The notes beneath the pieces were generated by a model. That model saw nothing but the letters and a program-made list of their open reading frames with translations. It was not told where the DNA came from and did not search any database. DNA of 64,000 bases, taken from contig NZ_CP050440.1 of NCBI RefSeq assembly GCF_011769525.1, forward strand, positions 7,364,001 through 7,428,000, in the 5' to 3' direction. This DNA comes from Tolypothrix sp. PCC 7910. Its GTDB lineage: Bacteria > Cyanobacteriota > Cyanobacteriia > Cyanobacteriales > Nostocaceae. Positions 9,055 through 33,934 of the stretch are shown here, in pieces. A program made the position numbers and the translations under genes. Position 1 is the first letter of the stretch. The number at the start of each line of letters is the position of its first letter.

Positions 9055-10020
9055 ATGAAAATTTTCGTTACTCGCAATCTACCAACTGACTTAGTACAAC
9101 TTAATGCAATGGTATCTGTGGAGGTTTGGCCGGAACGTCAACCACCACCTTATGAGATTTTGCTGGCTAAGGCGAAAGCTGTAGATGGGTTGTTGTGTCT
9201 GTTAACAGATAGAATTGATCAACAATTAATTGCTAGTTCTTCACTGAAAGTCATTAGTCAAATGGCTGTGGGGTTCGATAACATCGATATTGCGGCGGCG
9301 ACAGCACAAAAAATTCCCGTGGGACATACCCCTGGTGTATTAACTGATGCTACGGCAGATTTAACTTGGGCTTTACTCATGGCGGCTGCGCGGCGAGTTG
9401 TGGAAGCTGATAGATTTACCCGTGCAGGTTTGTGGCGAACTTGGGAACCAGATTTATTATTAGGGCCGAATGTTGCAGGTGCTACCTTGGGAATTATTGG
9501 CTGGGGACGAATTGGACAAGCTGTAGCGCGTCGTGCCCAAGGTTTTGATATGAGAATACTGTATACCAGCAACCGCAAATGTCAGCCAGAGGTGGAAAAA
9601 TGTTACGGTGCTGAGTTTGTGACGTTAGACAGGTTATTGCAAACATCCGACTTTATCAGTATCCATACGCCAGGGAATCAAGAGACTTATCATTTATTAA
9701 GCGATCGCGAATTTGCTTTAATGAAGCCATCGGCTATCTTAATAAACACAGCACGGGGAACGATTATCGACCAAGAGGCATTGTATCGGGCACTCTGCCA
9801 AAAGCAAATCGCCGCCGCCGCTTTGGATGTCACCGATCCAGAACCGCTACCAATGGATAGCCCCTTGCTAACTCTAGAGAACTTGATTATCACACCCCAC
9901 ATCGGAAGCGCCAGCCGCCAAACAAGAGCAAAAATGGCAGACATTGCGATCGCAAACTTAATTGCAGGCTTAAAAGGCGATCGTCTTCCCTACTGCGTCA
10001 ACCCAGAAGTTTATCGTTAA
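9055..10020 (+). CDS. D-isomer-specific 2-hydroxyacid dehydrogenase
   Basis: 321 aa, full length. Visible features: the Rossmann NAD(P) motif GIIGWGRIGQA (about residues 145-155), NTARGTIID (about 231-239), the Asp/Glu segment ALDVTDPEPLP and the catalytic HIGSAS near the C-terminus. This is closest to glyoxylate/hydroxypyruvate reductase (GRHPR/GhrB type), which reduces glyoxylate or hydroxypyruvate, the latter in the photorespiratory glycerate pathway. Specificity among relatives (formate, lactate, phosphoglycerate DH) is inferred. It stands alone, facing away from the histidine kinase; 264 bp between them show no gene. Confidence 0.85.
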   Translation: MKIFVTRNLPTDLVQLNAMVSVEVWPERQPPPYEILLAKAKAVDGLLCLLTDRIDQQLIASSSLKVISQMAVGFDNIDIAAATAQKIPVGHTPGVLTDATADLTWALLMAAARRVVEADRFTRAGLWRTWEPDLLLGPNVAGATLGIIGWGRIGQAVARRAQGFDMRILYTSNRKCQPEVEKCYGAEFVTLDRLLQTSDFISIHTPGNQETYHLLSDREFALMKPSAILINTARGTIIDQEALYRALCQKQIAAAALDVTDPEPLPMDSPLLTLENLIITPHIGSASRQTRAKMADIAIANLIAGLKGDRLPYCVNPEVYR

Positions 10021-10047
10021 ATTAATGCGTACTCCATCAATTACGAA

Positions 10048-10656
10048 TTACGAATTATCAACTAATCTCGGATACTGCGGACGGCAAGGACTACCTAAAC
10101 AAACCTGTCCAGATGGCATGGAACTAAAAACACTACTACGTGCGCCAATCACAGCATTTGCGCCGATTTCCACACCTGGGGCGACAAAACAATCAGCTGC
10201 TACCCAAACGCCATTATTAATAGTAATCTTCGCTGTCTTCAAGCCAAAAGCCGGATCGCGCATATCATGGCTACCAGTACAGAGATAACTTTTATGGGAA
10301 ATTACGCAATGTTCCCCGATGTGAATCTCATCGAGACTATAGAAAACGACATCATCACCAATCCAGCTATAGTCACCGATAGTCACTTTCCAAGGATAGG
10401 TAAAGCGCGCAGTTGGGCGAATAAACACACCTTTACCAATCCGCGCCCCAAACAAACGCAGCAACATACAACGCACCTGATTTAACGGCTGTATAGTCAA
10501 AGGAAAAGCGATCGCCTGCACCAACCACCACAACAAAATATACCAACCCGGACGGCCTCTATCAAACCAGGATTGGTCATACTTGCGTAAATCGGCAAAA
10601 GGGGCATTGGGCATGGGGCATTGGGCATTGGGCATTGGGTATTTGTTATTTGTCAT
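10048..10656 (-). CDS. WcaF-like colanic-acid-type O-acetyltransferase (hexapeptide repeat)
   Basis: 202 aa. After a membrane-associated Trp-rich segment (WYILLWWLVQAIAFPLTI) come left-handed beta-helix hexapeptide repeats (IGKGVFIRP, VTIGDYSWIGD, HIGEHCVISH, TINNGVWVAADCFVAPGVEIGANAVIGA). The fold uses acetyl-CoA to O-acetylate sugars. Neighbouring GT2 genes on the same strand support a role in exopolysaccharide or LPS decoration. The first about 20 residues (MTNNKYPMPNAQCPMPNA) are encoded by the tandem heptamer repeat at 10601-10694, so either the repeat has become coding or translation starts further in. Catalytic His is probably in CTGSHDMRD. Confidence 0.85.
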   Translation of the reverse strand: MTNNKYPMPNAQCPMPNAPFADLRKYDQSWFDRGRPGWYILLWWLVQAIAFPLTIQPLNQVRCMLLRLFGARIGKGVFIRPTARFTYPWKVTIGDYSWIGDDVVFYSLDEIHIGEHCVISHKSYLCTGSHDMRDPAFGLKTAKITINNGVWVAADCFVAPGVEIGANAVIGARSSVFSSMPSGQVCLGSPCRPQYPRLVDNS

Positions 10657-10694
10657 TTGTCATTTGTCATTTGTCATTTGTCATTTGTCATTTG
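10601..10694. repeat. Compound tandem heptamer repeats
   Basis: (GGGCATT)n followed directly by (TCATTTG)n, about 13 units in all. It overlaps the 5' end of the acetyltransferase gene. A separate series of CCCCAGT/CCCTAAT heptamers runs at about 10760-10810, up to the neighbouring glycosyltransferase. Confidence 0.9.
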
Positions 10695-10813
10695 GTAATG
10701 GATAATTGGGATTTCTTCTTGTCCCCTTGTCTCCTTGTCTCCTTGTCTCCTCATCTCCCCAGTCCCCAGTCCCCAGTCCCTAATCCCTAATCCCTAATCC
10801 CCAATCCCCCTCA

Positions 10814-11704
10814 CTACGATTTCGCCGTATTCAGCGTTCCGCCACAGTCGCGTAATTCGTAAAGTTTGGCTCCGATTTGATATTCGTATTGGCTTAATAA
10901 ACAGGCATAAACATATCCAGCTTTGCCATCTAAAAAGCCGCGCTGAATAATGTAGAACAAAATAAACCGTAATAATGGTTTAAATGGTAGACGTACCCAG
11001 ACTTTTTTTAAGAAGCGTTTGCGTTGGACTGCATCACCAAATAAATGTCCACCAATTGTGCCACCTTCATCTCGATTGGTGAGCAGATTATAATAAACGC
11101 GGGCTTCCCAATTAGAATAACGATTGTGTCTTTCTAACCAGTGGTAAAGGTCGCGGAAATCTTCATGCAACATATCATTTTTGAGATAGCCGACTTTACC
11201 ATCTAAAACCACGTGTTCGTGAACTTCATTATCGCCAGTATTGGGAATATCTTCGGTATGCAGGTTTTCGTAACGCCCTTGTTTATGCTTAAATAATCGC
11301 AAATTCCAATCGGGATATTTACCACCGTGGCGAATCCATTTTCCTAAGAAAAATACTCGGCGATTGAGATAATAACCTGCATATTCATCGTCTTGAATTA
11401 CTTGAGCAATTTCTGCCCATAATTCTGGTGTAATTCGCTCATCACAATCGACAATTAACACCCATTCATTGCGAAATGGCAGATTATCTAAAGACCAATT
11501 TTTCTTCTTCGGCCAGCTACCATTAAATTTAAATTGGACGATATGAGCGCCAAAACTTTCTGCAATAGCGACACTGTTATCGGTACTTTGAGAATCAACT
11601 AGAAATACTTCATCAGCTATTTGCAAGCTAGTGAGGCAAGCTGGTAAATTAGCTTGCTCATTTTTGGCGGGAATAAGTACAGAAACAGGTATTTTAGATG
11701 ACAT
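10814..11704 (-). CDS. Glycosyltransferase family 2, WaaE/KdtX-like
   Basis: 296 aa. GT-A fold: N-terminal SVLIPAKNEQANLPACL, then VDSQSTDNSV and the metal-binding DxD-type segment VDCDERI (about residues 86-92). The C-terminal half (LNRRVFFLGKWIRHGGKYPDW, LHEDF, RHNRYSNWEA) resembles bacterial LPS-core beta-glucosyltransferases of the WaaE type. No clear membrane anchor. It sits with another GT2 gene (26 bp upstream) and an acetyltransferase, all on the minus strand, which suggests a small surface-polysaccharide operon. Acceptor unknown. Confidence 0.85.
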   Translation of the reverse strand: MSSKIPVSVLIPAKNEQANLPACLTSLQIADEVFLVDSQSTDNSVAIAESFGAHIVQFKFNGSWPKKKNWSLDNLPFRNEWVLIVDCDERITPELWAEIAQVIQDDEYAGYYLNRRVFFLGKWIRHGGKYPDWNLRLFKHKQGRYENLHTEDIPNTGDNEVHEHVVLDGKVGYLKNDMLHEDFRDLYHWLERHNRYSNWEARVYYNLLTNRDEGGTIGGHLFGDAVQRKRFLKKVWVRLPFKPLLRFILFYIIQRGFLDGKAGYVYACLLSQYEYQIGAKLYELRDCGGTLNTAKS

Positions 11705-11730
11705 ATAAGATTTAAAATATATTTCAGATA

Positions 11731-12669
11731 TTATTTTTTATTTGCTGTTGATAGTAGCCCTTGAATGGCAGCATTTAAATAACCAATCTGACCATAGGCA
11801 TAAACAAGCTTGTCAAAGCGTTCTGCTGGATCGGAAAAGTATTGCAATGCTTTATATAAACCGCGAATAAAGCGTTCGCCACCTCGTTGTAATTGGCTAA
11901 TTCCAGCTTTTCCTGCAAGTTGTTCGCGGTAACATTCACTAATACCTTGCCACCAGCCGCGGTTTAAAAACCAAGAACGTTTTAAGCGTTCTGGTGCAAC
12001 ATTGTGAGCTACTAACGCTGCGGGAAGATAAGCAACTTGCCAACCTTTTTGCAGGGCAAATTCTGTCATTTGCAGTTCTTCATTGGATAATAAATTTTTG
12101 CCGACTCGACCAAGATGGGGATCAAAGCCGCCAATCTCTTCCAAGAAGGAACGGCGTATACAGTAATTTAAGCCTCTGGGGGTGAAACTCGGTTTATCAA
12201 TATAAATTGTGCTGTCACCCAAGTCGTATGCACCCAAATTCGCAGCTAAACCAGGGGATAGCCAGCGTGGTTGTTGTACGTCTTGGGGCCATAAAAGCGT
12301 AACTTTACCACCAGCGATCGCTAGTTGCGAGTTATTTTTATAGGCATCATAAAATACTGAAAGCCAGCGATCGCTTGCGACTGCATCATCATCTAAATAA
12401 GCGAGAATCTCTCCACTCGCTAGTTTTGCACCCGTATTCCGCGCTACAGATAAACCAGTAGTTGGTTCAAAGACATACTTCAACCGAGGATTGCTGGCTC
12501 TTTGCGCTACAACTTCCTTAGTGCGATCGCTGGAGTTATTATCAACTACCACAACTTCAAACTCAGCCGCAAAATCCTGTGCCAAAAGACTATCAATCGC
12601 CGCACCTAAATAGGTGTCTCGATTGTGAGTACAAATAATGGCAGAGATTTGGATATCTGGCATAGGCAT
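11731..12669 (-). CDS. Glycosyltransferase family 2
   Basis: 312 aa. N-terminal GT-A nucleotide-sugar domain: SAIICTHNRDTYLGAAIDSL, VVVDNNSSDRTKEVV and DxD-like LDDDAVA (about 92-98). NYCIRRSFLEEIGGFDPHLG and NEELQMTEFA follow, typical of exopolysaccharide GT2 enzymes. The C-terminal part (about 230-312) is helical and may sit on the membrane. Two in-frame ATGs exist (12669 and 12663); neither has a good Shine-Dalgarno. It precedes the WaaE-like gene by 26 bp, so co-transcription is likely. I considered HpsE but do not see enough to name it. Confidence 0.85.
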   Translation of the reverse strand: MPMPDIQISAIICTHNRDTYLGAAIDSLLAQDFAAEFEVVVVDNNSSDRTKEVVAQRASNPRLKYVFEPTTGLSVARNTGAKLASGEILAYLDDDAVASDRWLSVFYDAYKNNSQLAIAGGKVTLLWPQDVQQPRWLSPGLAANLGAYDLGDSTIYIDKPSFTPRGLNYCIRRSFLEEIGGFDPHLGRVGKNLLSNEELQMTEFALQKGWQVAYLPAALVAHNVAPERLKRSWFLNRGWWQGISECYREQLAGKAGISQLQRGGERFIRGLYKALQYFSDPAERFDKLVYAYGQIGYLNAAIQGLLSTANKK

Positions 12670-12880
12670 TGGTTATGGTTTTTGCTGTTACCAGTTGTCA
12701 GTGGTCAAAAGTCTCCAGCCAACAGTCGCAAGTTATACAAAGTCTATAAAGCTTTGACTAATAACTAATGACCAATGACCAATGACTCATGACAACATCC
12801 AACCGTAACCTAATGCCGCTAATCTATACCAAAAATCTAGTCCTACCAACCGAGTTTCTTCGGAAATAATCGTCAGAACT

Positions 12881-27731: not shown

Positions 27732-27913
27732 ATCAGTTAACTGACTTCCAAATCAAAAAACATCCCACAAAATAGATAATTTATTTCTTGGAAGTCCCTA
27801 TACCAAAAAATTCGGCTTGATATTTGGGCGATCGCATTATCTCAACAAAGCGATCGCCTTTTCAACTTCGCATTACCAGAAAACAACAAGTATCTACGAC
27901 TCCTAAACAAACT

Positions 27914-28123
27914 GAAGCGGTCTCCCTTGCAACCGAAGCGGTCTCCCTTGCAACCGAAGCGGTCTTCCCTGCAACGAAAACGGTCTTCCTTACAACCGAA
28001 GCAGTCTCCCTTGCAACGGAAACAGTTTTCCTTACAACAAAAGCTGTCTTCCTTGCAACAGAAGCAGTCTACCTTACAACAGAAGCGGTCTCCCTTGCAA
28101 TAGAAGCGGTCTCCATTTTGGCA
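27914..28123. repeat. 21-bp minisatellite, 10 units
   Basis: Ten tandem 21-bp units of consensus GAAGCGGTCTCCCTTGCAAC(C/A), starting every 21 bp from 27914 to 28103, with 0-6 changes each. Open frames cross it in both directions (heptads TEAVSLA on plus, CKGDRFG on minus), but neither has a good start. The rest of 27732-28292 shows no gene. Confidence 0.93.
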
Positions 28124-28828: not shown

Positions 28829-28976
28829 CTACGGAAGAATCTTCCCCAACCCGCACACAACACGAAAACCAACAATCTTGTAGTGGCTACCTCGCACCTC
28901 CTTATTGAGGTTGAAGCGAGACGCAGAACGGCAATATGAAGGAAAGTGGTACCAGGAACCGCCCCGCAGTATGGCA
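28829..28976 (-). other. Putative DGR variable region (VR) 1
   Basis: The C-terminus between RGGSW and GFRVV of the FGE-domain protein differs from its paralogue (32760-32905) mainly at first and second codon positions of codons ending C/T/G, while P, YCRSA, R and GFRVV stay fixed. This is the pattern made by adenine mutagenesis from a template with AAY codons in diversity-generating retroelements. Downstream of the stop both genes share TAGCCCTTT. No reverse transcriptase or template repeat is in the window. Confidence 0.55.
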
Positions 28977-29914
28977 GAAATATCATTCTTGTTCAACCAA
29001 GCGCTACCATCTGTTGGCGCTCTTATATAGTTGCTAAGCCAATTATCTTGACACCACTCCCCAACATTCCCGTGCATATCGTAGAGTCCAAAGCCGTTGG
29101 GTGGAAAAATTCCTACATCTGTTGTTTGGTTACGTTCTTTGCCCTTTGGCTCAGAAGCGTAAGTCTTATTGCCAGCGTAATTAGCTAACTCCGTTGTAAT
29201 TGTCTCGCCAAAGTGAAACGGTGTTGTAGTTCCTGCACGACAGGCATATTCCCATTCTGCTTCACTTGGGAGGCGATATTCCCTGTTTGTATATTTAGAA
29301 AGGCGTGAGCAAAACTCAACTGCATCGTACCAAGATACTGTTTCTACTGGACGGTTGTCTCCTTTAAATCTAGATGGGTTTGCTTTCAGGTCACGCTTAA
29401 CTTTGGGTAATGCTGCTACTCTTCTCCATTGCCCTTGAGTAATTGGATATTTACCCATGAAGAATGATTTAACCGTTACTTCATGCTGAGGGTGTTCATC
29501 TTCTTTTCCTTCCCTTCCTGGCGAACCCATCATAAAATTACCACTGGGAATTGCAACCATTTCTAATGTGACATTATTGCCTAAGTCTTCTTTAAATAAC
29601 TTAGCTTGGTTATTAGAATTTCGTTTAATTACCGTTCCATTTTCATTGACTGTTACTGTTTCAAACTCAACCATCCATAAAGGTAATCCCAATACCTTAT
29701 CTTTTGAAAGTATGTATTTGGGTTTTGCTACAGAGATTGATGTTTGTTTTTTAAAAATATCACAACCTACTAGTGCTGTTACTAAACCTAAGCTTCCCAA
29801 ACCACTCCACTGTAAAAACTGTTTTCGGGTAATTAGCTTTGCGGTGGTAATAGTTGTAAATAGTTGTCGCCATTTTTCTAATTGCTGTTTTTGTTTCATT
29901 GCCATGACCCGCAA
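28829..29914 (-). CDS. Formylglycine-generating-enzyme (SUMF1/FGE) domain protein
   Basis: Up to 361 aa; the frame opens with TTG at 29914 and the more likely ATG starts are at 29902 or 29896. N-terminal TRKQFLQWSGLGSLGLVTA-LVGC resembles a Tat-like/lipobox export segment. The FGE/C-type-lectin-fold domain runs from about residue 115 (LEMVAIPSGNFMMGSP) to the end (GLYDMHGNVGEWCQD, RGGSW, GFRVVCGLGKILP). The active-site Cys pair of true FGE is not evident, so a binding role is likely. It appears to be the surviving C-terminal part of a caspase-FGE gene (remnant at 29915-30194). The last 50 codons form the putative variable region. Confidence 0.85.
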   Translation of the reverse strand: MRVMAMKQKQQLEKWRQLFTTITTAKLITRKQFLQWSGLGSLGLVTALVGCDIFKKQTSISVAKPKYILSKDKVLGLPLWMVEFETVTVNENGTVIKRNSNNQAKLFKEDLGNNVTLEMVAIPSGNFMMGSPGREGKEDEHPQHEVTVKSFFMGKYPITQGQWRRVAALPKVKRDLKANPSRFKGDNRPVETVSWYDAVEFCSRLSKYTNREYRLPSEAEWEYACRAGTTTPFHFGETITTELANYAGNKTYASEPKGKERNQTTDVGIFPPNGFGLYDMHGNVGEWCQDNWLSNYIRAPTDGSAWLNKNDISAILRGGSWYHFPSYCRSASRFNLNKEVRGSHYKIVGFRVVCGLGKILP

Positions 29915-30194
29915 AGCAAAACCATAAATTATCTTTTGGATTTAATAAAGGAGTTTCAATATTCTCAAACTGTGCCTATAAAAATTGCCGCAAATGACCA
30001 AAAGTAGGTTGAGCAGGAATTGGCGGATTGGTCGCAATAGGGGGAGAATCATCAGTAAATAAAAAAACCTGCTCAAATCTGGCTTCTTGTTGAAACCAAG
30101 TAGCCATGACAGATGCATCTCGCTTTGCAAAGTTTAGCGATCGCAAATTTTCATAATGATTAATCCCCACAACAATCGCCCAATTCCTACCCAT
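29915..30194 (-). pseudogene. Decayed caspase (peptidase C14) domain
   Basis: MGRNWAIVVGINHYENLRSL through TFGHLRQFL (30194 down to 29979) aligns with residues 1-72 of the intact caspase at 31028. A TAG then interrupts, but the same frame continues with NPKDNLWFCFAGHG, the catalytic-His motif, before it breaks off. The catalytic Cys part is missing. Directly downstream the FGE gene begins in another frame. So a caspase-FGE fusion lost its middle and acquired a stop. The Trypco1/Pepco-like gene ends 13 bp upstream. Confidence 0.8.
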
Positions 30195-30207
30195 ATACCA
30201 GCACCAA

Positions 30208-30717
30208 TTATTTCCGCTTAAATTTAAATGTCATTGCGCCTTTTCCGCCGGCTTTACCACCACCAAGTCCAAACAGGCTGACTTGTCCTTCGCCATTGAT
30301 TTCTACGGAAAGTTCAACTTCATCTAGCTGCATTTTGGAATTAGGTTCTTCCGCCTCATCAAGCATTTCTCGCATTGCTTGCAGAAATCCCTTCATTTCT
30401 TGCTTAAGTTGAGATACTTCTACCTTGCGTCTAGTAATTACTAATTCGCCTTTTTTTTGGCTGACAACTATTTCCTCAGTGCTTTGAAATCTACCGAGTA
30501 CACCTCCTGTATCACTGCTGCTTCTGGCTCCACTGCTTGCGGTACTATCTGTATTTTTAAATTCACTGATAATTCCTCTTGTCTCTTGACTAGTGCTTCT
30601 GCTACCAATACTTCTTGTGACATTATCTGTATATGTTTCAGTCGTTGTATTTGAGGTTTCGGCAACTTCTTCGGTAATAATCCAAATGGCTTTAGGGGTA
30701 GAATCTTCTGCTGACAT
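30208..30717 (-). CDS. Small conflict-system-associated protein (Trypco1/Pepco-like)
   Basis: 169 aa. The Ser/Thr-rich N-terminal half looks disordered (TSNTTTETYTDN, SRSTSQETRG). The middle is helical (VEVSQLKQEMKGFLQAMREMLDEAEE). The C-terminus LDEVELSVEINGEGQVSLFG plus a Gly/Lys-rich strand KGAMTFKFKRK resembles the small beta modules that accompany trypsins or caspases in predicted conflict systems (Trypco1/Pepco-type). This resemblance is from memory and needs a profile search. It lies upstream of the decayed caspase and shares the locus with the intact caspase-FGE gene. Confidence 0.6.
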   Translation of the reverse strand: MSAEDSTPKAIWIITEEVAETSNTTTETYTDNVTRSIGSRSTSQETRGIISEFKNTDSTASSGARSSSDTGGVLGRFQSTEEIVVSQKKGELVITRRKVEVSQLKQEMKGFLQAMREMLDEAEEPNSKMQLDEVELSVEINGEGQVSLFGLGGGKAGGKGAMTFKFKRK

Positions 30718-30793
30718 AACTTTAATGATTTAAATTATTCTTGATTTAACTAGCTTTTACCAAGCAATACACCATAGAACAAAGACACACCTG

Positions 30794-30914
30794 CCTAGAA
30801 ATAAATGAATTTCTAGGGACAAAGGCAAAGTTTACTCAAGTAAACTGGGGATAAATGATGATTTTTAGTAATCTTTAGATTACTTTTGCTATTAGACTCA
30901 GAATTCATTCTGAG
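30794..30914. repeat. Multi-hairpin element, copy B
   Basis: Order as in copy A: CCTAGAAAT..ATTTCTAGG (30794-30817), AGTTTACTCAAGTAAACT (30829-30846), AGTAATCTTTAGATTACT (30867-30884), CTCAGAATTCATTCTGAG (30897-30914), with linker TTTGCTATTAGA. It fills most of the 310-bp gap between the Trypco1/Pepco-like gene and the divergent caspase gene. Confidence 0.9.
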
Positions 30915-31027
30915 GCGGGACATGGGTTTTACGTTAAGTTGACATTGATTTCCGCACAGTAGTAGTGCATTACTATTATTCAGTAATAACACTTAAACTG
31001 GCAAACAGACGAGCATAACAAGGTAGA

Positions 31028-32902
31028 ATGGCTAAAAATTGGGCATTAGCGATCGGCATTAATCAATACAACAATCTTCAGCACCTAAATTACGCCAAAC
31101 TAGATGCCGAAGCTATGCGCGATTGGTTTGGGAAGGAAGCCAGATTTGATCAAGTTTTCCTCTTCACTGAAGATTCTCCCGCAATTCCCACCAATCCACC
31201 GATACCCACGCAGCCAACATACGGTAACTTGCGGCGGTTCTTACGGGCAAACTTTGAAAAGCCACTACTGGAACCAGGGGATAATCTCTGGTTTTTCTTT
31301 GCTGGTCATGGTTGTCGGGAAGCTGACCGAGATTATCTCATGCTGATAGATAGCGACCCAGGCGATGTAGAACATACAGCAATCCCCGTTGATTATGTTA
31401 TCCAAAGATTGCGTCGCAGTGGTGCTGATAATGTAGTGTTATTTTTAGACGCTTGCCGCGATGATGGCAGTAGGCGAGGAGTGGGTATTGGTGAAGAACA
31501 TCAGGGAGTAGTCACCTTTTACTCTTGCAGTCCCAGTCAAAAATCTTATGAAATTGAGCAGTTGCAACATGGCTCATTCACCCAAGCTTTGTTAGAAGGG
31601 TTGAGGATAGCAGGTGAAGGAAACTGCGCCACAGTAGAAAGATTGGACAGATATTTACAAGCAAGAGTACCTGCAATTAATCAAATACATCGGAAAACTC
31701 AGCAATATCCCTACGTTGCAGCCGAACCTGCGACAAAATTACACCTAATTTTGTTACCCGACTACGCGACGCTAAATGATATTAACCAATTGAAACTAGA
31801 TGCTTATCAAGCTGAAGTTATAGGAGATTGGGAATTAGCTAGACAATTATGGCTGCGGGTGAATGTGGCTGCTAGGGGGTCAGATATGCAGGTAATTGAA
31901 GCATTTATCAGAATTGCCCAACGCCAGGGGCAGTCTTCTGCACTCCTAAAAAATCCTGAACCTTCACTAGGGGGAGAAAGGTCAGAAGTTTCTCAACCAC
32001 TACTTACAGCAAATCAAACTGGACTACAGATTTTTCAGTTTGATGTGGTGACGGTAAATGCAAGTGGTCAAGAGGTGAGAAGAGACAGAAGTAAAGCTCA
32101 ATATTTCAGCGAAGACTTAGGTAATGATATCACTGTGGAAATGGTATATATCGCTGGTGGCAAATTCATGATGGGGACAGAAGATGAAGAAATAGAAAGG
32201 CTTATGCAAAAATTCAAATGGGATGGGTTTAAAAGAGAAAAACCGCAACATCAAGTAACACTTAAATCATTCTTTATGGGTAAAAATCCAGTCACCCAAG
32301 CGCAATGGAGAAGAGTAGCGACACTACCCAAAGTTAAACATGACCTGAAAACTGACCCATCAAGCTTTAAAGGAGACAACCGACCAGTAGAGCAAGTTTC
32401 TTGGAATGATGCAGTGGAGTTTTGCGATCGCATCTCCAAATATACAAACAAACAATATCGCTTGCCAAGTGAAGCAGAGTGGGAATATGCCTGTCGAGCA
32501 GGAACTACGACACCATTTCACTTCGGGCAGACCATGACAACTGAGTTAGCTAACTACGATGGGACTGACACCTACGGTTCTGAGCTATTGGGCAAAAAAC
32601 TTGGAGAAACAACGGGAGTAGAGACTTTTCCACCCAACGGCTTTGGTTTATACGATATGCACGGGAACGTTGAGGAATGGTGTCAAGATACTTACCATGA
32701 AAGCTATAAAAAAGCGCCAACAGATGGTAGTGCTTGGCTTAATGATAATCAGTCTCGTATACGGCGTGGCGGTTCTTGGGGCAGTAGTCCTCGTTACTGC
32801 CGTTCTGCGTTCCGTAGCTTCCACTATTGGGCGGAGCGCGACAGCCTCTACAGCAACATTGGTTTTCGTGTGGTCTGTGCCGTTGGGAGGATTCTTCAGT
32901 AG
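31028..32902 (+). CDS. Caspase-FGE fusion protein
   Basis: 624 aa. N-terminal peptidase C14 (caspase-like) domain, about 1-240: WALAIGINQY, catalytic His94 in FFFAGHG and catalytic Cys143 in LFLDACRDD. A helical linker (about 245-325) follows. The C-terminal SUMF1/FGE-like domain (about 370-624) has EMVYIAGGKFMMG, RLPSEAEWEYACRAG, GLYDMHGNVEEWCQD and GFRVVC. Caspase plus a C-type-lectin-fold sensor is known from cyanobacterial conflict or programmed-death systems: the lectin fold would sense and the protease would act. Cytoplasmic, no signal peptide. The last 45 codons form the putative variable region. Its decayed paralogue is divergent and upstream. Confidence 0.9.
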   Translation: MAKNWALAIGINQYNNLQHLNYAKLDAEAMRDWFGKEARFDQVFLFTEDSPAIPTNPPIPTQPTYGNLRRFLRANFEKPLLEPGDNLWFFFAGHGCREADRDYLMLIDSDPGDVEHTAIPVDYVIQRLRRSGADNVVLFLDACRDDGSRRGVGIGEEHQGVVTFYSCSPSQKSYEIEQLQHGSFTQALLEGLRIAGEGNCATVERLDRYLQARVPAINQIHRKTQQYPYVAAEPATKLHLILLPDYATLNDINQLKLDAYQAEVIGDWELARQLWLRVNVAARGSDMQVIEAFIRIAQRQGQSSALLKNPEPSLGGERSEVSQPLLTANQTGLQIFQFDVVTVNASGQEVRRDRSKAQYFSEDLGNDITVEMVYIAGGKFMMGTEDEEIERLMQKFKWDGFKREKPQHQVTLKSFFMGKNPVTQAQWRRVATLPKVKHDLKTDPSSFKGDNRPVEQVSWNDAVEFCDRISKYTNKQYRLPSEAEWEYACRAGTTTPFHFGQTMTTELANYDGTDTYGSELLGKKLGETTGVETFPPNGFGLYDMHGNVEEWCQDTYHESYKKAPTDGSAWLNDNQSRIRRGGSWGSSPRYCRSAFRSFHYWAERDSLYSNIGFRVVCAVGRILQ

Positions 32903-32905
32903 CCC
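32760..32905 (+). other. Putative DGR variable region (VR) 2
   Basis: Codons between RGGSW and IGFRVV of the caspase-FGE protein include many ending in C/T with changing first two bases (GGC, AGT, AGT, TAC, TTC, AGC, TTC, CAC, TAT, GAC, AGC, CTC, TAC, AGC, AAC), as expected if a template holds AAC/AAT. Compared with VR 1, about 25 differences fall at codon positions 1-2 and about 9 at position 3. A GC-rich end (GTTGGGAGGATTCTTCAG) then TAGCCCTTT could be the homing-initiation end. Confidence 0.55.
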
Positions 32906-33097
32906 TTTATGCTTTAGTTCTTTTTCCCTTTACGCTTGTTATTTTTTCCTTTTAGAGTATTGCGAAGCGGAACGATCGCATTTTTTTACGTGATATGAGT
33001 TCGACAGCGAATGGAAGCCAGAAAGCTTACAGATAGAATGAGACAGCATAGCAATGCTTTTATAAGGGTGAAGCCAAAACGTAAAATCCCAGAGAAC

Positions 33098-33541: not shown

Positions 33542-33934
33542 ATGGCTTTATGGCGACTTTATTATCATTTGGTTTGGGCGACAAAAGAACGTCAGCCACT
33601 AATTACCAGCGAAATTGAAGCAAGGCTTTACAATTATATTATTAGCAAATCCGATGAAATTAATACTATTATTCATGCTATTAACGGCGTAGAAAATCAT
33701 ATTCATTTAGTAGCTTCTATTCCTCCCAAAATTTCTATTTCCGATTTTGTTCAAAAAATTAAAGGCAGCAGTACTCATTACATTAATCATTTATATCCAG
33801 CAAAAGATATATTTGCTTGGCAAAGAGGATATGGCGTTTTCTCACTGGGTAGAAAACAACTGGAACAAGCTGTTATTTATGTAAAAAATCAGAAAGAGCA
33901 TCATTTAAATGGAGCAATAATTGCATCTTTATAA
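33542..33934 (+). CDS. Y1 (HUH) transposase, RAYT/IS200-like
   Basis: 130 aa. HUH metal motif H53-I-H55 in NGVENHIHLV and the catalytic Tyr113 in YVKNQKEHH are intact; HLVWATKERQPLI at the N-terminus is typical. Such enzymes cut and rejoin single-stranded DNA next to hairpins. No TnpB partner and no IS200-type ends were recognised; instead several multi-hairpin repeats flank it at 33098-33328 and 33978-34158, which suggests a REP-associated (RAYT) enzyme. No clear ribosome site before the ATG. Confidence 0.88.
   Translation: MALWRLYYHLVWATKERQPLITSEIEARLYNYIISKSDEINTIIHAINGVENHIHLVASIPPKISISDFVQKIKGSSTHYINHLYPAKDIFAWQRGYGVFSLGRKQLEQAVIYVKNQKEHHLNGAIIASL

Follow-up and report, generated by a model that had tools for sequence, protein, structure and literature searches.

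The locus and its two lectin genes

We analyzed a 64,000-nucleotide stretch of the genome of Tolypothrix sp. PCC 7910 (C1:7364001-7428000; here called the window), which is 8.76 Mb long, assembled into 7 contigs, and rated 100% complete. Between 28.8 and 33.0 kb, the window carries, in order, a minus-strand frame consisting only of an FGE/C-type-lectin (CLec) domain, an N-terminal caspase remnant, a minus-strand Pepco gene, a plus-strand caspase-CLec gene, and an IS200-like transposase gene (Table 1). Our subject is the 3' ends, or tips, of the two CLec genes. An earlier note on this DNA had proposed that both are variable regions (VRs) of a diversity-generating retroelement (DGR) acting in trans, with its reverse transcriptase (RT) and template repeat (TR) elsewhere in this genome.

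Both FGE-sulfatase domains match Pfam PF03781 (E = 1.7e-54 and 1.3e-58). In addition, the plus-strand gene encodes a Peptidase_C14 domain (Pfam E = 2e-22), as expected of caspase family C14, and its product contains the motifs AGHG and DACR, presumably the carriers of the caspase His/Cys dyad; the note's description of this caspase as intact fits the sequence. The second gene's caspase part is preserved only N-terminally, up to FAGHG; it contains an in-frame stop, and its frame differs from that of the lectin end. In congener G007, this second gene is an open 795-residue frame, compared to which approximately 330 residues are gone from the window, including the stretch with the second catalytic motif. 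Judged from this comparison of sequences, the minus-strand CLec frame is the remains of a second, degraded caspase-CLec gene. Upstream of it, positions 27910-28114 hold a tandem repeat of period 21 (9.8 copies).

Table 1. Features at the Pepco/caspase-CLec locus (positions in the window)
Feature	Position	Strand	Remarks
Caspase-CLec gene	31028..32902	+	Intact 624-aa frame; Peptidase_C14 at residues 4-233, C-terminal FGE/CLec at 371-616
VR 1 variable codons (27 codons)	32780..32860	+	
VR 1 3' flank (GFRVV, GGGAGG, then ATTCTTCAGTAGCCCTTTAT...)	32861..32925	+	Common to plasmid DGR targets
FGE/CLec-only frame, 361 aa, TTG start	28829..29914	-	Lectin end left from second caspase-CLec gene
VR 2 variable codons (27 codons)	28871..28951	-	
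Caspase N-terminal remnant of second gene	29889..30230	-	tblastn 86% over 114 columns
Pepco-domain gene (PF24393)	30208..30717	-	Between both targets; E = 1e-27
IS200-like transposase (Y1_Tnp)	33542..33934	+	Downstream of caspase target; E = 5.1e-30

Variation in the tips

We counted codon differences between the two window tips by hand over the 27 aligned codons between TGG and GGT-TTT-CGT. The tips differ at 20 of these codons, 17 of them with an amino-acid change, and the differing bases comprise 24 at codon positions 1 and 2 and 9 at position 3, in good agreement with the approximately 19 codons, 25 bases, and 9 bases given in the earlier note. When the part of this gene pair upstream of the tips is cut into 12 blocks of 20 codons, position 3 changes most, alone or tied, in 10 of them. 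The common 3' GC-rich stretch and TAGCCCTTT that the note described are both present.

In a genus sample of 8 genomes, full-length caspase-CLec relatives occur at 78 to 80% identity in G004, G005, G006, and G007 (with one in-frame TGA in G006), and their tips all differ from one another. Variable columns of the form NNC/NNT are set among fixed codons; in a column such as GGC/TAC/ATC/ATC/GAC, the third base is constant and the first two are random. Each of five length-matched orthologues has C or T as the last base of 14 to 16 of its 17 variable codons, which is beyond chance; the note had observed such an ending in most variable codons of the two window tips. Across seven orthologues (21 pairs), VR differences at codon positions 1, 2, and 3 amount to 46, 40, and 23%, respectively, compared to 13, 10, and 24% upstream; the VR figure for position 3 is inflated by gap placement in G006 and G007. 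L158 and L161 share tips with G005 and G006 and were counted once in the 21-pair comparison. L156, L160, L163, L166, and L168 were left out of the codon counts, and the tips of L156 and L160, read separately, vary too.

Among the 10 pairs of length-matched orthologues, nonsynonymous divergence (dN) exceeds synonymous divergence (dS) in the VR in 9 and in the caspase or pre-VR FGE regions in 0. In all 10 pairs, dS in the VR does not exceed dS in the pre-VR FGE region, and dN is several-fold higher in the VR. Pooled over the 10 pairs, which are non-independent, the third base is kept in 139 of 163 amino-acid-changing VR codons versus 647 of 1082 upstream. In contrast, a kinase-CLec paralogue is identical from GGSW to GFRV in all six species aligned.

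Match to templates of other genomes

A motif search found TR-like sites, some of them coding copies, in 40 of 98 relatives. Within the genus, G002 and G003 each have a TR adjoining an RT with IGNLTSQ, a stretch that we take to be the mark of DGR RTs. Of 42 template-like sequences (some duplicates), the one that fits VR 1 best is the TR on plasmid3 of Fischerella sp. NIES-4106, which has the same length and from which VR 1 differs at 18 of 32 adenines and 7 of 73 other bases (p = 8.5e-7, uncorrected); the fit to the G003 TR was poorer (18/31 adenines and 10/65 other bases). VR 2 differs from the G003 TR at 15 of 31 adenines and 4 of 65 other bases (p = 3.9e-6, uncorrected for the choice of best template), the latter count becoming 5/65 under codon-level gap placement. 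Two orthologues compare similarly with the G003 TR, differing at 14/31 adenines and 2/65 other bases in G006 and at 17/31 and 4/65 in G007. The G002 DGR was rejected as the writer, its TR having 18/69 and 20/69 non-adenine mismatches to the window VRs. Because VR 1 is matched best by the Fischerella plasmid TR and VR 2 by the G003 TR, these comparisons do not show a single shared template. The differences nevertheless map to adenines of foreign templates, so the DGR-type origin that the earlier note assigned to both C-termini survives.

For calibration, nine VRs at loci retaining RT and TR have 0 to 1 non-adenine mismatches to their own TR, and four control paralogues from the Tolypothrix sp. 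PCC 7910 genome have 18/70, 19/66, 10/51, and 15/51 to the best TR. It is low non-adenine mismatch, not adenine excess, that separates the VRs from the controls; adenine excess as the sole test was rejected because two non-DGR paralogues show it. Both window VRs are 3'-terminal in a CLec fold and changed at template adenines, as DGR VRs are, with respect to foreign TRs only and imperfectly compared to the calibration VRs. The two closest TRs mismatch the window VRs at 4 to 10 non-adenines, versus 0 to 1 in the calibration set; the window VRs are thus not fresh copies of any template seen, and we take their true template to be lost, diverged, or unsampled.

Diversifying selection of the ordinary kind, acting on a binding surface with no retroelement involved, would also produce part of this pattern, since the VR forms the ligand-facing surface of CLec folds, the adenine sites of a template are the variable residues by design, and selection alone yields some adenine excess, as in controls L025 and L026. 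However, third bases remain C or T while positions 1 and 2 are randomized, and the low dS and high dN of the VR also speak against it; near-identity to foreign TRs at non-adenines and a common 3' flank past the stop codon are left unexplained. This account, already disfavored, is in our judgment very improbable.

The flank in question is also found at plasmid DGR targets. In two plasmid DGRs, the likeness between TR and VR runs through GGGAGG and then ends, while the VR side goes on as ATTCTTCAGTAGCCCTTTATACTTTAG (with small variants) beyond the stop codon. The window caspase gene carries GGGAGGATTCTTCAGTAGCCCTTTATGCTTTAG at the matching place, nearly the same as the plasmid target-side sequence, and the flank common to the window VRs and the plasmid DGR targets extends through TAGCCCTTTAT. 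As expected for homing initiation, the target-side 3' flank is unlike the template side, and it is the same flank as in the plasmid DGR targets. The VR 3' flank is, by its sequence, a natural candidate for the homing-initiation side. A post-VR hairpin was sought at both window VRs and was not found.

Search for DGR machinery in the genome

The genome contains four RVT_1 matches, none of them DGR-like: two group II intron-like RTs of equal score (G000:C1:2847565-2848251 on the chromosome, L001, and G000:C3:50139-50825 on a 61-kb contig, L002), one RT-Cas1, and one 532-aa RT. With a DGR RT query, the best matches in the genome reached only 31% and 27%. The 532-aa RT (C1:7191683-7192588, L004) was rejected as the writer; it is 31% identical to the DGR RT and reads QGGVLS where the G002 and G003 RTs read IGNLTSQ. 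PADLOC was no help in classing these RTs, as it ranked UG17 second for the 532-aa RT and true DGR RTs alike. The 532-aa RT adjoins a frame with a macro-domain-like start.

A search of the genome for a TR of the window VRs returned only the VRs themselves, coding paralogues, or short chance matches. A search for Avd found no intact copy; its three matches, a 36-residue stump (E = 2.8e-6) and two still weaker ones, fall short of the cut-off. The stump matches at 64% over 36 residues by tblastn (E = 3.8e-12) and covers positions 1-36 of 104 of the NCBIfam profile (E = 4e-8, under the cut-off). The earlier note's claim that RT and template lie elsewhere in this genome therefore finds no support: with neither a DGR RT nor an A-rich near-copy, the outcome is the one that the note itself had named as speaking against it, and only the adenine mapping stands, against templates of other genomes. 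Its view of targets served in trans, one of them fused to a caspase, agrees with the locus; nothing DGR-like adjoins the targets, so writing would have been in trans.

The Avd stump directly follows a second orphan pair of CLec targets (C1:7207682-7210266; L252 9683-12267), approximately 0.18 Mb away, in the order trypsin-like/AAA/vWA-like/CLec/CLec/avd stump. Its presence beside this pair indicates that the genome once had a DGR there. The pair matches its best TR only weakly (10/67 and 9/67 non-adenine mismatches). Upstream of this operon, on the minus strand (L252 1552-5389), lie TniB/TniQ/Mu-type (Tn7-like) transposition genes, and repeats after the stump (L252 ~12450-12735) resemble what we take to be termini of CRISPR-associated Tn7-like elements. 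The operon could be carried as cargo.

Exchange of tips is a further alternative: the tips would have been DGR-written elsewhere and then spread among CLec paralogues by gene conversion or horizontal transfer, and the genes would never have been targets here. Over window positions 30966-32749, DNA identity to G004 is 82% in the FGE part, lower than the 93% of the caspase part or the 95 to 98% of the flanks, as if the CLec end had been swapped or were evolving faster even outside the VR, and these species hold many CLec paralogues to exchange with. Yet there is no donor in the Tolypothrix sp. PCC 7910 genome, where the best other VR DNA matches reach 71%, 67%, and 66%, and every orthologue has its own tip. 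We give this scenario little credence.

The putative writer lineage in relatives and on plasmids

A near-full-length DGR RT occurs in 24 of 98 relatives (hand count, at least 63% identity), and G012, G035, G036, G039, and G043 have only fragments. Among the 8 genus genomes, near-full-length DGR RTs and Avd matches over the cut-off are both confined to G002 and G003. Besides Tolypothrix sp. PCC 7910, four congeners with the same caspase-CLec gene lack a DGR RT match, among them G006 (none at E 1e-10). In genomes with more or less distant caspase-CLec relatives, 2 of the 10 searched have a DGR RT (L159 left out).

The G003 RT has a relative at 92.9% on a plasmid of Fischerella NIES-4106 (AP018301.1) and another at 90.0% on one of Nostoc UHCC 0926 (NZ_CP117770.1). 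Both plasmid DGRs have two CLec targets and Avd, and the Nostoc UHCC 0926 DGR adjoins ParA/ParB. In G003, the RT lies with a resolvase and an integrase on a 27.5-kb contig (C4), perhaps a plasmid, on which no CLec gene was seen; the two G003 CLec targets lie on a separate contig (C37), which shares its start and another reading frame with C4. A 2.7-kb stretch of C4 matches the Tolypothrix sp. PCC 7910 genome in only two pieces of approximately 180 bases. Given that the kinase-CLec genes of these two genomes differ at only 50 of 1956 bases, presence of the writer shifts over short evolutionary distances. Contig C2 of G003 (9572-12801) has, in place of the caspase-CLec gene, another caspase gene, a 921-residue frame that matches the caspase part at 53% and adjoins a cysteine-synthase-like flank also present in the window.

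This distribution bears on whether a DGR is still active in trans, with RT and TR on a replicon of the living strain that is outside the assembly. Plasmids of Nostoc and Fischerella carry a DGR lineage, the target-side 3' flanks appear intact, and adenine mutation has been reported in targets of Nostoc punctiforme cultures (PMC12691664). On the other side are the completeness of the 7-contig assembly, which lacks a DGR RT, TR, and intact Avd, and the non-adenine mismatches of the VRs, which exceed those at loci retaining RT and TR. A writer active today seems to us improbable.

Probable orphaned variable regions

We consider the tips to be orphaned (RT-less) remote DGR variable regions in a Pepco/caspase-CLec locus, whose writer was lost or itinerant and which are now frozen; we put the probability of this reading at roughly 0.77. 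The writer, a DGR (RT, Avd, and TR) from the plasmid-associated lineage of Nostocales and now absent from the assembly, would have sat elsewhere and copied an adenine-mutagenized template in trans into the 3' ends of both genes, choosing its targets through the conserved 3' flank. We infer that the writing was done from a mobile element. After loss of the DGR, the tips would have been frozen, with the intact caspase-CLec protein retained as a sensor whose specificity no longer changes and the second caspase-CLec copy decaying. From the families involved, we infer that the CLec tip binds a ligand and that the fused caspase is activated on binding, probably in defense or cell death, and that Pepco is a likely partner of the caspase-CLec protein.

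Several observations weigh against orphaning. Plasmid loss is a presumed step, and the RT could sit on an unassembled replicon. Among the TRs seen, none equals either window VR at all non-adenines, the best differing at 4/65 and 7/73. In G003, the CLec targets on C37 have 5/65 and 7/65 non-adenine mismatches to the G003 TR, so that recent writing is not demonstrable even in a genome with RT and TR. Adenine excess also appears in control paralogues L025 (21/31 adenines versus 23/65 other bases) and L026 (18/31 versus 19/65), and L026, with 10/51 non-adenine mismatches and 2/8 third-base changes, comes near the weaker VRs. Pair by pair, the third-base test reaches Fisher p < 0.05 in 4 of 10 pairs, with p = 0.10 for the Tolypothrix sp. 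PCC 7910-G004 pair and 0.41 for the pair with L159; the latter is also the exception to the dN excess, with dN below dS in the VR.

Remote targets are known from cyanobacteria. Vallota-Eastman et al. 2020 (PMC7517822) describe remote variable proteins with a C-terminal CLec domain and a VR near the 3' end, far from the RT, and that paper already reports DGR targets with caspase domains as well as one remnant paralogue without an RT. The window resembles those systems in its C-terminal CLec VR, in the distance from an RT, and in the nearby IS200/IS605-type element, and some of their variable proteins and paralogues likewise carry an orthocaspase. Unlike them, it lies in a whole genome without RT, TR, or intact Avd, whereas theirs are in genomes with DGR components, and the templates that fit it best come from a sister species and from a plasmid belonging to another family. 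A remote variable protein in the sense of PMC7517822 has a VR at least 50% identical to that of a DGR variable protein in the same genome, and this genome has no DGR for such a comparison.

The DGR-diversified conflict systems of Dore et al. 2024 (PMC10907252) also have CLec/FGE targets diversified in trans; these are linked to caspase/CHAT and MoxR-vWA ternary systems, are proposed as antigen sensors, and include at least one non-diversifying target that matches another locus's TR except at adenines only. In contrast to the present genome, in which no DGR is left, theirs retains several. The gene order of the second orphan pair is like that of the VMAP/MoxR-vWA ternary systems with an FGS domain (Kaur et al. 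2020, PMC7159879); the window locus, made up of Pepco and caspase-CLec genes, is unlike them in lacking MoxR-vWA. Published support for a sensor that triggers a caspase is itself predictive (PMC7517822, PMC10907252, PMC7159879, PMC8195603). In partial literature coverage, nothing further was found on RT-less DGR targets, none of the matches listed concerned a bacterial Pepco protein, and no paper was found on genus-wide orphaning with a plasmid-associated writer lineage, which seems new.

A broader scenario can be put forward tentatively, though we hold it to be somewhat less than an even chance. An itinerant plasmid-borne DGR may visit Nostocales, rewrite chromosomal caspase-linked sensors in trans, and be lost, leaving species-specific frozen receptor alleles; the writer would then be a transferable mutator, not a fixed part of the locus. 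What the literature had hinted at with one RT-less remnant paralogue becomes a testable pattern: a receptor linked to a caspase and written by a retroelement has a different tip in each species, and its writer is missing from all five congeners carrying the receptor. If a mobile writer does edit resident death-linked sensors and then leave, RT-first surveys of DGRs would overlook many targets, and horizontal visits could shape bacterial receptor repertoires.

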